Source: Clostridia bacterium (GTDB taxonomy: Bacteria > Bacillota_A > Clostridia > Christensenellales > Borkfalkiaceae). Taken from it: a stretch of DNA of 7,651 nucleotides. The DNA lies in assembly GCA_017507595.1 (NCBI GenBank), contig JAFWAM010000020.1, positions 1 through 7,651 on the forward strand, read 5' to 3'. Numbering within the stretch: position 1 is the stretch's first letter; each line of letters opens with the position of its first letter. This document shows positions 250 through 7,651 of this stretch, piece after piece. Below the pieces are notes generated by a model. The model saw only the letters and a program-made list of their open reading frames with translations, was not told the origin of the DNA and did no database searches. The position numbers and the translations under genes are program-made.

Positions 250-1302
250 TCATTCCTTTTGAGTATTAATATGTTGGATTAAAATTCGTATATATTTATT
301 TTTACCATTTACTTTAGGAAAAGCAAAATCGTATTTATTGCCTGATCCTGTATGCAATTCACCAACAATTTTAAATTGTTCTTTGCAGTGTTTTGCTAAA
401 AAGGTTAATGGTACGCCAATAATTTTATCTGTATTGCAAGGAATGTCTTGAACAAAACCGCAATCTATTGCGTTATATGTATCGTATTCCGGATAATTTT
501 CGGGTGTGTATTTTTTATATAGGTCTAAAGGGGTATGTCTTATGGCAAGGTCAAGATTTGTAAACCAACAAATATTCCCTAATCTTCGCCATTTTTGTCC
601 AGTCTCATCTTGCTTGTAATCCGTCCCTTTTGCCTCATAGTATTCAGGGACTTTAAACCAAAAATGTCCGCTATTAACACCAAGCCATACTTTATTTTCT
701 ATAAAATAGGGAAAGGTTTCAGCCCAAGTCGCATGATTCATATTTCCTAATATGATGAACTGTTTTTGCGCATTAACCAATAATGGCAAATACTCTTTCA
801 TTAAAGAGAATGGTGGATTGGTAACGACAATATCGGATTCCTTTAAAAGTTGCAAACATTCTTCCGAACGAAAATCGCCATCACCTTTTAAGAGAGTTAA
901 AGCATTTTTATCATTTTTTAATAATTCGCAAACGTCGGACATATCAACCGTATCATTCCCATCAGAGTCTTTCACTTCGGTAATTTCTATCTTGTAAGGC
1001 TTTTTTCCTTCTTGTATTAACCCTGTAGGTTTATCATCCCCAAAGATGTTTAATTGAGTGTAGAAAATAGGCGAGGTTGCATAACAGGTCGTAATCAATT
1101 TTTTTAAACCTAAAACGTTAAAGTTTAAGGCGAAATACTTGAAAAAATTGCTTTCATACGGGTCATCGCAATTACAAAATACGATTTTATCTTTAAAATA
1201 TTTGCGATAATGCCGTAATTCTTCTTCAATAGTAGATAATTGCGTATAAAACTCGTCCGTTTTTCCTGCTCGCGACATTTGCAAATTGCTATTAGTTGCC
1301 AT
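250..1302 (-). CDS. EcoRI-family adenine-specific DNA methyltransferase
   Basis: This 350-residue protein is predicted to transfer a methyl group from S-adenosylmethionine to adenine in DNA. The N-terminus KTDEFYTQLSTIEEEL (14-29) and CNCDDPYESNFFKYF (43-57), followed by LGLKKLITTCY (64-74), match what I recall of the EcoRI methylase family (M.EcoRI is about 326 aa). The catalytic NPPF motif is at 162-165, preceded by the hydrophobic strand DIVVT; GDGDFRSEE (140-148) is a likely cofactor-side loop. The C-terminal half (about 200-350) would hold target recognition. The start is supported by AAGGAG at 1313-1318, 10 nt upstream. Its first codons overlap the end of a leader ORF, so translation may be coupled. 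It is followed after 6 bp by a DUF262 gene. No EcoRI-like endonuclease is visible. The recognition site cannot be assigned from sequence alone. A+T content is clearly higher than in the transporter genes to the right, suggesting transfer. Confidence 0.93.
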   Translation of the reverse strand: MATNSNLQMSRAGKTDEFYTQLSTIEEELRHYRKYFKDKIVFCNCDDPYESNFFKYFALNFNVLGLKKLITTCYATSPIFYTQLNIFGDDKPTGLIQEGKKPYKIEITEVKDSDGNDTVDMSDVCELLKNDKNALTLLKGDGDFRSEECLQLLKESDIVVTNPPFSLMKEYLPLLVNAQKQFIILGNMNHATWAETFPYFIENKVWLGVNSGHFWFKVPEYYEAKGTDYKQDETGQKWRRLGNICWFTNLDLAIRHTPLDLYKKYTPENYPEYDTYNAIDCGFVQDIPCNTDKIIGVPLTFLAKHCKEQFKIVGELHTGSGNKYDFAFPKVNGKNKYIRILIQHINTQKE

Positions 1303-1372
1303 ATGTTTTGTGCTCCTTAGTATAAAGTCGCACTCTCAAAATAAAAAAGTGCGCAACTGAGATTGCGCACAT
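1292..1372 (-). CDS. Leader peptide upstream of the methyltransferase (26 aa)
   Basis: This short ORF starts at the ATG at 1372 and encodes MCAISVAHFFILRVRLYT followed by KEHKTYGN. It has a strong Shine-Dalgarno, AAGGAG at 1383-1388, 10 nt before the ATG. That is the same sequence and spacing as for the methyltransferase. Its first codons make up the Rho-independent terminator hairpin at 1349-1370, and its late codons (ACT AAG GAG) contain the methyltransferase ribosome binding site. It ends at a TAA (1292-1294) inside the methyltransferase gene in another frame. A ribosome moving along the leader would therefore melt the terminator and deliver translation to the next start. This suggests a regulatory leader rather than a functional peptide. 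The frame stays open further upstream to 1513, but nothing supports an earlier start. Expression is inferred from layout only. Confidence 0.72.
   Translation of the reverse strand: MCAISVAHFFILRVRLYTKEHKTYGN
1313..1318 (-). promoter_or_regulatory. Ribosome binding site of the methyltransferase, inside the leader ORF
   Basis: AAGGAG lies 10 nt before the methyltransferase ATG. It is read as codons AAG GAG of the leader ORF, so leader translation passes directly over it. Confidence 0.8.
1338..1370 (-). terminator. Rho-independent terminator inside the leader ORF (attenuator)
   Basis: On the minus strand GTGCGCAA and TTGCGCAC form a perfect 8-bp GC-rich stem with a 6-nt loop, followed directly by TTTTTTATTTT. 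It sits between the promoter and the methyltransferase, so it must be read through for expression. A competing 5-bp pairing exists: TTGCG just upstream (1377-1381) with CGCAA of the first stem arm (1363-1367). This would leave the leader ATG in the loop and block the terminator. The attenuator role is inferred from position. Confidence 0.85.
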
Positions 1373-1382
1373 AAAACGCAAA

Positions 1383-1388
1383 CTCCTT
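1383..1388 (-). promoter_or_regulatory. Ribosome binding site of the leader peptide
   Basis: AAGGAG lies 10 nt upstream of the leader ATG. It follows the 3' arm of the 18-bp inverted repeat by only two bases, so folding or unfolding of that stem could affect ribosome access. Confidence 0.75.
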
Positions 1389-1390
1389 GT

Positions 1391-1534
1391 TGCTACACAA
1401 ATAAATAGAAATGAACAAACACTCCCATTTGGAATTTGCATTTTTAACAAATTTCTATAATGGGAGTATGTCAATAAAAAGGGCAGAATATCCCCTTTGT
1501 TCGTCCATCTCAAAAACTATTTATTTGTGTAGCA
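1391..1534 (-). ncRNA. Structured 5' leader RNA: predicted three-way junction closed by an 18-bp perfect inverted repeat
   Basis: TGCTACACAAATAAATAG (1391-1408) is perfectly complementary to 1517-1534. Within it are two smaller hairpins. One pairs AAAGGG with CCCTTT (1493-1498 with 1478-1483, 9-nt loop). The other pairs 1459-1467 with 1421-1429 (9 bp, AATGGGAGT/ACTCCCATT) and continues inward with 1448-1453 against 1433-1438 (6 bp). The predicted transcription start of the promoter at 1540-1568 falls right at the outer arm, so the transcript would begin with this fold. It ends two bases before the leader Shine-Dalgarno. I do not recognise a known riboswitch class in it. Function is inferred: control of leader translation or of the downstream attenuator. 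Confidence 0.6.
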
Positions 1535-1539
1535 TAATT

Positions 1540-1568
1540 AGTATATCACACTTTCTTATTTTTTTCAA
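1540..1568 (-). promoter_or_regulatory. Sigma-A promoter for the leader-methyltransferase-DUF262 operon
   Basis: On the minus strand the -35 TTGAAA (1563-1568) and the -10 TATACT (1540-1545) are separated by exactly 17 bp. Each box has one mismatch to consensus. The expected start is about position 1533-1535, at the first base of the 18-bp inverted repeat. Confidence 0.85.
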
Positions 1569-4282: not shown

Positions 4283-4467
4283 ACCAAAACGAAAGCACTC
4301 CACAAAACTGTGACAGTTGCAAAGATATTTTCCCTGCACCCAACGGTCGGCCGCTCAAACGGACGGACGTTTCGGCGATAGCACCTTTGGGACTTTTTTA
4401 TGGACCTTTGAGGATCAAAAAAGCCTTAATCTTTGATATCGCGCCTCTAATCATTCTTGATTTTGAC
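4283..4467 (-). ncRNA. Lysine riboswitch (L box) aptamer
   Basis: On the minus strand the conserved blocks occur in the right order and spacing. AGAGGCGCG is at 4440-4448, CGCCGAAAC at 4369-4377, TTGGGTGCAG near 4334-4343, and the P5 block TGTCACA-GTTT-TGTGGAGTGC at 4295-4315. These match the lysC-type L box of Bacillus subtilis. Outer P1 is formed by 4456-4467 with about 4284-4295 (GTCAAAAT against GTTTTGGT, with several wobbles and one mismatch). The total of about 185 nt is normal for the class. It lies 3' of a sigma-A promoter and 5' of a terminator and the importer operon. It should sense free lysine and shut down the importer when lysine is plentiful. Confidence 0.93.
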
Positions 4468-4672: not shown

Positions 4673-4702
4673 GCTTAATAATCGACCTATAGGCGGGTTT
4701 TT
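4673..4702 (-). repeat. Intergenic repeat, copy B (after the small lipoprotein gene)
   Basis: The core at 4680-4702 reads (plus strand) AATCGACCTATAGGC, GG, GTTTTT, identical to copy A except at one base. Its GGCGGGTTTTT arm can also pair with 4708-4718, competing with the terminator stem at 4713-4737. Confidence 0.7.
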
Positions 4703-5220: not shown

Positions 5221-5243
5221 AATCGGCTTATAGGCCTGTTTTT
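5221..5243 (-). repeat. Intergenic repeat, copy C (after the large gene)
   Basis: This copy reads (plus strand) AATCGGCTTATAGGC, CT, GTTTTT. It is more diverged than copies A and B but keeps the same length and frame of conserved bases. It lies 20 bp past the stop of the large gene, in the 88-bp gap before the lipoprotein gene. Confidence 0.55.
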
Positions 5244-5262: not shown

Positions 5263-7651
5263 TCAAAGGGCGAAAAGCCGCATGGCTGCGGTTTTTACGC
5301 CGGGATCGGAATACTCGTCAATTTTAAATACAATGGTGTAAGTGCCTTTTTCAAGGCGGGAAATATATTTTGTTTCAACGCCGCCAAAGGCTGTGTCGGT
5401 ATAGGTTGGGAAAACTGACGTGCCGTATTTTTTGCCGTTTTGGTCGTACACGGCGAAAAAGTCGGAATCAACCGTGACGAGAAGCTTATAGGCTTTATCT
5501 ATGGTGAAGATAAAGGTCGAGGATGAATACTCCGTATTGAGAGATGAAGTGACTATTGTCGTATACTTGTCCTCGTAAAGGGTAAGAGAACTGCTTTCAG
5601 TCACTCCCTTTTCGTAGCAGACAAGCCTTATCCTCCCCTTAAAGTAATCGTTCATATAAACGGAGGGGCTGTAAGTATAGCTTACCCTATCGAGGGAGTA
5701 TACGTAGATATCTTTGCCATCCACGGTGACAGATTTCCAACGGCTGTAATATTTGCCGTCCTCGGTATAAAATCCGCCGCCGTTGACATCCATACCGTCA
5801 AGAAGCTCGTACTCGACGTAATAGCTGCCTACCTCCGTCGGGGTGATGAGGAAGGTTGCCAAATCGCCGTAAATCACGACGTCCTGCCACTGCTCGGTCA
5901 AAGGTAAGGTGCCGGTTGTGGGGGCGCCAACGTATTTTGCAGAGCCTGAATAGGTAAAGGGATCAGCACGGTCGCCGTAGTTTACACATTCCATAGAAAG
6001 AACGTAATTTTTACCTGCCTCAAGCACGAAGGCGTGACGGGGTGCCCACGCACTTTCAACGGGGGCGTCGAGATTGGTGCTTTCGTAAACGTCAATGGCA
6101 ACGTGATCGTGGTCGCCAAAATCGTAAATACCCGATTTTGTTGGATTAAAGGTCAGAACGTTTACGTCACCGTTGCCCTCGAAAAGGCACTCAAAGGTGT
6201 TTTCGTCAAGAATATCACCCGATGGGTCGTAAAGGTCGCCGTAATCCTCGTATATGCGGGAGTCAACCGTTACCGTTACGGTGTCAAGACCGTAAGAAAC
6301 GTAATTGCTTTTTAAGTAATATAAGCCTGCGGGGAAGTAGTTATCCCTGTCGTAATGACCGTGAACCCTGCCGTCCTCGTTTAAAAGAGTCACCGTCTTT
6401 TTGTCGGGGGTAAAGTTATATACGCCTCCTTCAAGAATTCGTATGGGCAAATAGTTGACGACGTCGGGGTGGTCGTAGCCGTAATCGGACGTGGTGTAGG
6501 TCTTGTAGGAGAAGGACTTGGTGTTGCCGTCGACCTCGATAAGGCCGTTGTTGAAAAGCTTTGCGTCCTCAAAGCTGTCGGCAAGCATAAACTCGTGAGT
6601 TTGGGGCGTGTAAAGCTCAACGGTCGTTACGTTAAGGGCACTTAATTTCTGGCTAAGCTCGTAAGTGACGTCGTAATACTCCACCGGGTAACGGGGATCG
6701 CTGTGGTGGACGTAAATATAAAAGTCAAGCTTGCCGTCGGTGAAATCATATTTGTAGGTCACGACAAACCTGCCGTAGCCTGTGGTTACGCCGTAGCCTG
6801 AAAGGGCGGATTTGATCTGATCCTTCCAAAAACCGTCCTGCATATCCCAAAGGCTGACGTAAGCGGTATATTTGCCGTCGGCGGTCTTAAGATAAGTCGC
6901 GTTAGCGTCAATAAGCTGCCAAACGGGAGTTGTGTCCTCAAGGACGGTGTCCATATCCATACCGGATCTTTCCGTAAGGACGAGATTTATACCCGACATA
7001 AGCATCTGGTGGTACCAGCTGCCGCCGTCAAGGTAATATTTGCCGTTGCGGGTTTCAAAGCGGGAATTTTTCTTATCAATATAATAATTATAGCCGTTTT
7101 GAGATTTCTTTTCGGTCTTGCCGGCGCCGTATATAGAAGTGAGCGTATAGTTGCTTCCTATATAATAAGTGAAGCTTTCTGCCGCTTGAAATGCCGTTTT
7201 AAAGGCCTCGATCTGAGGGGAAATTTCTTCAATAACCGACACGGAGGCCGACTTTTGCTCTTCAGTAAGGTTTTCAATCTCGTTTTTTTCCTCGGGGAGC
7301 AGGGTGGGGATAACGTACCCCTCCACCGCCGACAGGGTAACGCCGACTGACTCGGAATCTATCCTGTATTCACCGTCGAGCTGAATGGTTGCTTTGTAGC
7401 TTCCGTTGGAAATCTTTTCGTCAAAAAGAATATATTGCTCCTGATTGGAGATCTTGAATTTATTATTGCCAAGCCATTGATATACGCGGGTATCAACGTT
7501 AAAAAATACCTTGCCTACCGCGTCGGTATAATCTGCCTTGGGAACGATAGCAACGTAAGCAACTGCTTCGGTTACCTCGTCGTAAAAATTATATTCACAG
7601 GTAGCGGTGGTCTTTACGTCAAAATAGTCCTCAAAATTTTCCATTGTGAGG
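5263..7651 (-). CDS. Large Tyr-rich extracellular beta-module protein, N-terminus beyond the window
   Basis: The frame is open to the right edge. The first visible ATG is at 7644 (793 residues from there), but it has no ribosome binding site and is followed by no signal peptide, so the real start is probably off the edge. Numbering from that Met, residues 1-115 look like beta sheet. Residues 118-155 form a charged helix rich in Glu, and 156-350 form a second region (YYIDKKNSRFETRNGKYYLDG, then VTYKYDFTDGKLDFYIYV) resembling lipoprotein-type beta folds. From about 365 to the end come roughly four beta-sandwich-like modules (365-465, 485-575, 585-680, 685-793). They share a rhythm: F-P/ID, G-Y-F, a V-YD or YTEDGK turn, and EAGKNY/EKGTYT. 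This resembles pre-peptidase C-terminal-type modules. The residue mix is Tyr-, Asp- and Thr-rich, typical of secreted proteins. No LPXTG or catalytic motif is seen; binding or scaffolding is only a guess. Confidence 0.78.
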   Translation of the reverse strand, partial: LTMENFEDYFDVKTTATCEYNFYDEVTEAVAYVAIVPKADYTDAVGKVFFNVDTRVYQWLGNNKFKISNQEQYILFDEKISNGSYKATIQLDGEYRIDSESVGVTLSAVEGYVIPTLLPEEKNEIENLTEEQKSASVSVIEEISPQIEAFKTAFQAAESFTYYIGSNYTLTSIYGAGKTEKKSQNGYNYYIDKKNSRFETRNGKYYLDGGSWYHQMLMSGINLVLTERSGMDMDTVLEDTTPVWQLIDANATYLKTADGKYTAYVSLWDMQDGFWKDQIKSALSGYGVTTGYGRFVVTYKYDFTDGKLDFYIYVHHSDPRYPVEYYDVTYELSQKLSALNVTTVELYTPQTHEFMLADSFEDAKLFNNGLIEVDGNTKSFSYKTYTTSDYGYDHPDVVNYLPIRILEGGVYNFTPDKKTVTLLNEDGRVHGHYDRDNYFPAGLYYLKSNYVSYGLDTVTVTVDSRIYEDYGDLYDPSGDILDENTFECLFEGNGDVNVLTFNPTKSGIYDFGDHDHVAIDVYESTNLDAPVESAWAPRHAFVLEAGKNYVLSMECVNYGDRADPFTYSGSAKYVGAPTTGTLPLTEQWQDVVIYGDLATFLITPTEVGSYYVEYELLDGMDVNGGGFYTEDGKYYSRWKSVTVDGKDIYVYSLDRVSYTYSPSVYMNDYFKGRIRLVCYEKGVTESSSLTLYEDKYTTIVTSSLNTEYSSSTFIFTIDKAYKLLVTVDSDFFAVYDQNGKKYGTSVFPTYTDTAFGGVETKYISRLEKGTYTIVFKIDEYSDPGVKTAAMRLFAL

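Follow-up and report, generated by a model that had tools for sequence, protein, structure and literature searches.

The preQ1 and fluoride riboswitches combine a pseudoknot with a transcriptional expression platform, and systems of the tet(M)/erm type are leader-peptide attenuators in which a promoter, a leader and a terminator precede the gene. The same three elements were found in front of a methyltransferase gene in a stretch of 7,651 nucleotides of Clostridia DNA (hereafter the window). With pseudoknot riboswitches that have a transcriptional platform, the present element has in common a 5′ leader, mutually exclusive pairings that include a pseudoknot strand, an intrinsic terminator and occasional tandem copies; the present RNA differs in that it has no match in Rfam 15, in its long closing rod and in the enrichment of exported proteins among its downstream genes. 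Compared with tet(M)/erm-type attenuators, it has no conserved frame and showed no similarity in a search of plasmid records. Judged by comparison with its relatives, the window element is probably a cis-acting pseudoknotted transcription attenuator and a member of a multi-copy Clostridia RNA family.

Leader and methyltransferase operon in the window

All elements named in the initial annotation, namely a near-consensus promoter, a structured leader, an AAGGAG with an open reading frame and a terminator within the codons of that frame, were present, and all of them lie on the minus strand (1568-1338, together with the overlap into the gene), as do the features of the leader and operon given below. 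The promoter (1568-1540) consists of the -35 sequence TTGAAA (1568-1563), a 17-nt spacer and the extended -10 sequence TG-TATACT (1545-1540), and matches the consensus at 10 of 12 positions; a second, weaker promoter-like site (9/12) was found at 1513-1485. From the promoter position, +1 was predicted near 1534-1533, which coincides with the beginning of stem P1. The leader (1535-1300) gave a computed folding energy of -82.1 kcal/mol compared with -45.7 ± 4.3 kcal/mol for shuffled sequences (z, -8.5), and 0 of 200 shuffles folded as low. The body of the RNA (1534-1391) was computed to fold into P1 (1534-1518 with 1407-1391), P2 (1511-1499 with 1420-1408), a small hairpin (1498-1492 with 1483-1477) and P3 (1467-1459 with 1429-1421), with an apical hairpin, P4 (1453-1433; 1453-1448 paired with 1438-1433), whose bases overlap the pseudoknot partner. 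This partner is the apical loop strand AAAAATGCAAATTCC (1445-1431), which was assigned from pairing and from conservation counts in members of the family.

The switch strand GGAGTTTGCGTTTTA (1386-1372) has two potential partners. With the loop strand it can form 14 of 15 pairs of a pseudoknot, and with the 5′ arm of the terminator it can form an antiterminator in which GAGTTTGCG (1385-1377) and CGCAATCTC (1367-1359) match at 8 of 9 pairs (1385-1359). The sequence at 1370-1338 has both attributes of an intrinsic terminator, a G+C-rich hairpin, GTGCGCAATCTCAGTTGCGCAC (1370-1349), and a T-rich tail (1348-1338). The terminator and the start codon of the methyltransferase are separated by about 35-46 nt, and the promoter scan found no minus-strand promoter-like site in this gap, so the methyltransferase is probably read through the terminator. 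Both the fold and the terminator exceed chance, and both recur in relatives.

The downstream gene (250-1302; ATG 1302-1300) encodes an EcoRI-type adenine DNA methyltransferase, which was identified by a match to PF13651 (E 1.2e-120) over residues 6-343, that is, over its full length, and which is preceded by the Shine-Dalgarno sequence AAGGAG (1318-1313). It is followed by the start of a gene for a GmrSD_N (DUF262) protein (1-243), which is cut by the window edge; the 81-residue fragment matched GmrSD_N with an E-value of 3.2e-05, under the Pfam cut-off, and REase_II in PADLOC (E 1e-20).

A DNA search of a phage collection with the leader gave one match, MT835503.1 (L107; 75% identity, E 2e-37), which is the nearest relative found, and 5 stem pairs were changed on both sides in the alignment of the two leaders. 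L107 carries a PF13651 methyltransferase and a full-length protein with GmrSD_N and a C-terminal HNH domain. The RNA model described below was applied to 106 other loci of the methyltransferase family, 5 of which contain less than 200 nt of upstream sequence, and the leader lay directly upstream of the gene in one of them, L059, a Clostridia MAG from sheep rectum with the gene order leader, methyltransferase, DUF262-type protein. A plain DNA search of these loci had given nothing convincing and had missed L059; the search of L101-L106 with the RNA model gave a sole match (E 0.08) that was located elsewhere and was too weak to count. The three methyltransferases of the window, L107 and L059 are 51-60% identical to one another, and the nucleases of L107 and L059 are 71% identical. 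The three loci resemble EcoRI-type methyltransferases with a GmrSD-like neighbour in domain content and gene order, and differ in their leader from the methyltransferase family at large. Because the cassette of leader, methyltransferase and nuclease recurs in two loci besides the window, the leader has either remained with the methyltransferase operon or joined it repeatedly.

MT835503.1 is filed as Bacteriophage sp. and is an unannotated fecal contig, in the first 6.6 kb of which the cassette is accompanied by a tRNA and by two genes named by eye, for a MATE-like transporter and for an ABC exporter; it is probably a fragment of a bacterial chromosome rather than a phage. An origin of the leader as a phage element was rejected, as two exact patterns had no match in the viral collection and this sole match from the phage collection looks chromosomal.

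Distribution and shared anatomy of the RNA family

The leader was searched as DNA against 391 genomes sampled from one class, Clostridia, an assignment that rests on the named loci L010 (the centre of the genome draw), L059, L061 and L067; matches at E ≤ 0.001 were found in 49 genomes, and the members precede quite different genes. A covariance model whose only helices were P3, P4 and the terminator was then built from 35 aligned members, and it detected members in 79 of the 391 genomes at E ≤ 1e-6, at most 7 candidates being scored per genome. All 9 genomes of one order had a member at E ≤ 0.01, with up to 14 copies in one genome, and 4 of 8 further genomes had a member at E ≤ 1e-5, one of them with 12 copies. 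The model detected no member in 10 genomes of named records, six of which are Clostridia (e.g. Ruminococcus bicirculans and Oscillibacter), and none in 198 genomes of the class of Catenisphaera; because the same model succeeds elsewhere, the family is patchy even inside the Clostridia. With a profile built without the window and L107, the E-values were 1.3e-20 for the window, 1.5e-23 for L107 and 8e-18 for L059; the E-values of these searches are rough, and the model was fitted to members, which are search hits and not a random sample.

When the window and 20 member loci were scanned against Rfam 15 at the gathering cut-off, other RNAs were matched and none for the leader element, and permissive scans of the element gave only matches below the cut-off. 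No paper was recognised as describing the motif in the literature searches, and the passages found by term search in three surveys of candidate RNAs (PMC8632094, PMC11109978, PMC8040213) contained no matching motif, overlap with their supplementary lists being possible. The survey candidates are likewise structured leaders without an assigned ligand. The uncatalogued status of the family rests on these Rfam 15 and literature searches. Seven loci (L114, L140, L146, L158, L189, L238 and L273) carry the RNA twice in the same orientation, and in the tandem copies of L114 and L140 the terminators are identical and the bodies differ. A tRNA or RNase P gene was located within about 1 kb of the element in 5 of the 20 member loci scanned with Rfam (L107, L115, L116, L119 and L131); such genes may mark genomic islands.

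The members share one order of elements from 5′ to 3′, namely an extended -10 promoter, P1 (from about +1), P2, the small hairpin, P3 with the apical loop, P2′, P1′, a linker, the switch strand, the terminator and the gene. The linker between P1′ and the switch strand is short and often GACAAYC. Of 150 distinct cores, 138 were used for the counts of P1 and of the cis pseudoknot, the other 12 having no GG[AG][AG] strand in place; for the counts of the antiterminator and of ATG codons, 116 members were used after exclusion of 1 without a terminator found and 33 without GGAG at the set distance. The switch strand was of type A (GGAGTTTGCGTTTTT-like) in 84 of the 138 members and of other kinds, e.g. 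GGAGTTGTGCATTTTT, in 54.

P1 was paired at 12 of 12 positions in 124 of the 138 members compared with 28 of 400 shuffles, and 113 distinct P1 helices were found among the 131 members with at least 11 of 12 pairs; a -10-like motif lay upstream of P1 in 129 of these 131, a count that is biased in that the scoring of P1 favoured such motifs. Paired cells amounted to 78% in P4 and to 99.9% in the terminator, for which the alignment had been fitted to that same structure. The pseudoknot helices were 94.3-98.8% paired over 86 distinct rows, with changes on both sides at 7 of 15 pairs, and the best ungapped pseudoknot pairing reached 15/15 in 27 of 43 members (14 in the window) compared with 4 of 8,600 shuffles. 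Since neither P1 nor the pseudoknot was a helix in the covariance model, they are partly independent checks; the member sequences are related, so that the shuffle and permutation counts here and below are not true probabilities. Conservation is highest in the loop and switch strands, which are nearly invariant among type A members while the stems vary. By this comparison the element has the attribute expected of a riboswitch, a conserved structured 5′ leader tied to a downstream gene.

Alternative pairings and the proposed switch

Duplexes of the switch strand with the loop of the same member were compared with permuted combinations. The mean energies for the pseudoknot were -18.51 versus -17.99 kcal/mol in type A members and -16.04 versus -12.61 kcal/mol in the others, and 0 of 2000 permutations were as good in each group. 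The antiterminator duplex in the 116 members had -11.2 kcal/mol with matched arms versus -5.7 kcal/mol with shuffled arms, and -11.22 in cis versus -10.43 kcal/mol when permuted; none of 2000 permutations equalled the cis value either overall or in type A, and 40 of 2000 did so in the non-type-A members. Both pairings are thus better in cis than in permuted combinations, the antiterminator modestly so. In the nine well-aligned antiterminator pairs (pair 166-187, mostly mismatched, was omitted), 88.5% of cells were paired (86.9% in shuffles), 18 cells were changed on both sides versus 4.4 in shuffles, and registers slid along from this one scored lower. Two counts were negative. When arms were swapped among the 33 switch strands that diverge most, the antiterminator duplexes lost almost nothing (-12.72 kcal/mol matched versus -12.52 kcal/mol swapped), and the ON structure counted as a whole was not paired above shuffles (66.1 versus 66.7%), owing in part to the misalignment of P3 by the model (33% paired) and to one antiterminator position that is mismatched in most members. 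Apart from these two counts, comparison points to an expression platform with exclusive pairings.

Three divergent members were compared using segments chosen by eye and of unequal lengths. In the outlier L121, the member's own strand is a much better partner for its loop and terminator arm than the majority strand would be, and all three segments have diverged in concert; in L136, this holds for strand and loop, and the gain on the arm was small. The strand of L059 relies on its own loop, with -17.7 kcal/mol versus -8.5 kcal/mol for the loop of the majority. The majority strand, however, would pair with the loop (-19.0) and the arm (-10.6) of L059 no less well than the L059 strand (-17.7 and -10.4), so the changed strand of L059 shows no antiterminator gain.

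According to the proposed mechanism, transcription would start at about the first base of P1, and the rod of P1, P2 and P3 would display the apical loop (1445-1431). The strand at 1386-1372, transcribed next, would have two mutually exclusive partners. In the OFF state, the strand would pair with the loop as a pseudoknot, the terminator (1370-1349) would form and transcription would stop; in the ON state, the loop would be held in P4 and the strand would pair with the 5′ arm of the terminator (1367-1359), so that no terminator would form and the methyltransferase and nuclease genes would be transcribed. A helper hairpin, CGCACTTT...GAGAGTGCG (1353-1329), may accompany the antiterminated state, as judged from folding and comparison; its pair GCGCAC...GTGCG is present in L107 and absent in L059. 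Comparison of the members supports the stems, each of the two competing pairings, the terminator and the link with the gene downstream; the anatomy suggests that the pseudoknot is the OFF state, and a cellular signal (a small molecule, a protein or other) would shift the balance as in a riboswitch. In the window, the computed terminator and antiterminator forms had -72.0 and -70.4 kcal/mol, respectively, a gap of 1.6 kcal/mol, and the pseudoknot duplex was worth about -17 kcal/mol, any loop penalty not yet subtracted. Such near-equal folds could be a balance that a modest signal would tip. The geometry speaks against a full pseudoknot. The loop caps a rod of about 40 bp, and its partner lies a few nucleotides from the rod base, so that the junction would have to bend, or the rod to open in part, for all pairs to form; complete formation of the pseudoknot with P1, P2 and P3 intact is doubtful unless the rod bends.

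Downstream genes and alternative explanations

With a crude ORF caller, the 3′ gene was co-directional with the RNA in 129 of 149 cases (none was found in 1 of the 150), compared with 78 of 146 cases for the 5′ gene, which was not found in 4. The 20 of 149 3′ genes that are not co-directional count against a cis attenuator. Predicted start codons lay a median of 28 nt past the RNA match (range, -4 to 851), and a purine-rich ribosome site was present at 116 of 126 predicted starts, the choice of start having favoured such sites. These data bear on the possibility that the element acts in trans as an independent small RNA, transcribed from its own promoter to its own terminator, and that the methyltransferase is transcribed only by leakage. 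Such a role would suit the promoter-like motif and terminator that flank the RNA in most members examined and the copy number of up to 14 in one genome (E ≤ 0.01). It is nevertheless unlikely, given that the co-directionality is confined to the 3′ side, the 5′ side being near random, that half of the predicted starts are 28 nt or less from the end of the RNA match, and that a strand capable of antitermination is conserved. A dual role, as cis attenuator and trans small RNA, is possible.

Pairing could also occur in trans, if the switch strand of one copy bound the apical loops of other, terminated copies in mutual repression. The near invariance of loop and strand in type A against varying stems would agree with this, as would the strained cis geometry and the suitability of a stiff, loop-tipped rod for pairing in trans; yet a member's own loop beats permuted loops on average in both groups (0/2000), although the gap in type A is only 0.5 kcal/mol and the copies were pooled across genomes. 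Trans pairing was rejected as the main mode on account of the better cis loop duplexes, and we regard it as improbable.

The initial annotation had compared the locus with resistance genes and proposed that methyltransferase expression follows translation through a leader peptide, or that the control region was captured from a resistance gene. Its description of the sequence was accurate, as the leader stop (1294-1292) lies inside the methyltransferase gene and the AAGGAG of the gene itself (1318-1313) inside the leader frame, and its idea of attenuation stands in so far as a terminator-bearing leader precedes the methyltransferase; sensing by a leader peptide and capture from a resistance gene are unsupported. 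On that reading, a ribosome on the 26-codon frame MCAISVAHFFILRVRLYTKEHKTYGN (1372-1292; ATG 1372-1370) would sense translation stress and so control the terminator, and in the window the AAGGAG (1388-1383) and ATG are well spaced and the stop falls within the gene. The terminator recurs in family members, but neither the frame nor its overlap with the gene start is conserved. L107 has TTGG in place of the leader ATG, and a frame opened there by TTG or GTG ends after 2-3 codons; among the 116 members with the GGAG strand, an ATG lies 5-13 nt after the strand in 41, the frame is no longer than 5 codons in 22 of these 41, and an overlap of less than 60 nt with the gene start was found for 4 of the 34 frames that could be tested. 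The AAGGAG reaches into the switch strand, a conserved RNA strand with pairing partners, and its purine run is accounted for by the pseudoknot and antiterminator pairings. The leader peptide was rejected for lack of a conserved frame among the 116 members, the frame of the window being judged a chance frame, and such control has very little probability. Nor was there any sign of capture from a resistance gene. The window leader had no match at E ≤ 0.01 in 72,556 plasmid records, which presumably contain resistance genes of the tet(M), tet(O), tet(W), erm and cfr types, and a second family member had none at E ≤ 0.1; as far as these searches with two members reach, an origin from resistance plasmids was rejected.

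A mobile miniature insertion-like repeat that carried a promoter and terminator in front of many genes, its structure being a mere inverted repeat, would account for the many and tandem copies and the inverted-repeat ends, but it is most unlikely in view of stems that vary strongly and yet pair (113 distinct P1 helices among 131), of loop and switch strands that are the most conserved parts, and of the one-sided tie to the downstream gene.

From the 129 co-directional genes, 126 had a start codon and 108 were scanned (130 nt or less from the RNA, at least 45 aa, distinct). Among the 25 Pfam families listed of 55, BspA-type leucine-rich repeats (14), the copper amine oxidase N-terminal domain (11) and LRR_8 (9) were commonest, followed by MazE-like (5), CHAP (4) and NPCBM (4) domains and by lectin, S-layer and NlpC/P60 domains (1-3 each). 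No toxin of the ToxN type, which would be expected beside a ToxI-like RNA of a Type III toxin-antitoxin system, was among these 25 families, and in the window itself the downstream gene is a methyltransferase. Judged by a simple rule of a hydrophobic N-terminus, not by SignalP calls, 44 of the 63 downstream proteins with a length of 150 aa or more looked exported or membrane-bound versus 20 of 86 other ORFs of the same loci (Fisher p 1.7e-8); with the limit lowered to 60 aa, the count was 50 of 104. PADLOC defence models matched 3 of the 108 proteins, two methyltransferases and one weak match; the methyltransferase is hence an unusual client of the family. Cys-rich proteins of 60-90 aa starting with MIIDGPTGIEL were repeatedly found behind the leader (L112, L129, L138, L139, L177, L188 and L206); a protein search gave 133 relatives, and no Pfam domain was found among the 120 listed.

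The genes behind the other members are varied and enriched for exported proteins, which suggests that the signal would be a broad physiological cue and not one tied to a single metabolic pathway. More tentatively, the family might be a new class of sensing RNA, with at least a dozen copies per genome in some Clostridia. All copies would then read one general signal through a common pseudoknot/antiterminator switch and set both a restriction-modification operon and many exported proteins (leucine-rich-repeat, lectin, S-layer and copper-amine-oxidase-like), and the exposed surface would change in step with DNA defence. If the attenuator reading is right, the family would be a sizeable orphan group of regulatory RNAs, unmatched in Rfam 15, in little-studied Clostridia and with a testable two-state mechanism. 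A restriction-modification operon would then apparently be under RNA attenuation, of which no earlier description was found in the literature searches, and a leader common to restriction-modification and exported-protein genes would make the common signal a concrete question.

Elsewhere in the window, a lysine riboswitch aptamer (RF00168, 84.9 bits; 4285-4457, minus strand) lies upstream of an amino-acid-type ABC transporter operon (4194-1815, minus strand) for a solute-binding protein, a permease and an ATPase. An ORF of 793 aa (5263-7644, minus strand) had no Pfam match. The intergenic repeat AATCGNCNTATAGGCNGGTTTTT occurs at 1784-1806, 4680-4702 and, with 1 mismatch, 5221-5243 (plus strand), that is, in 3 copies in 7.65 kb versus 0.01 expected, and is perhaps a lineage-specific terminator or repeat.
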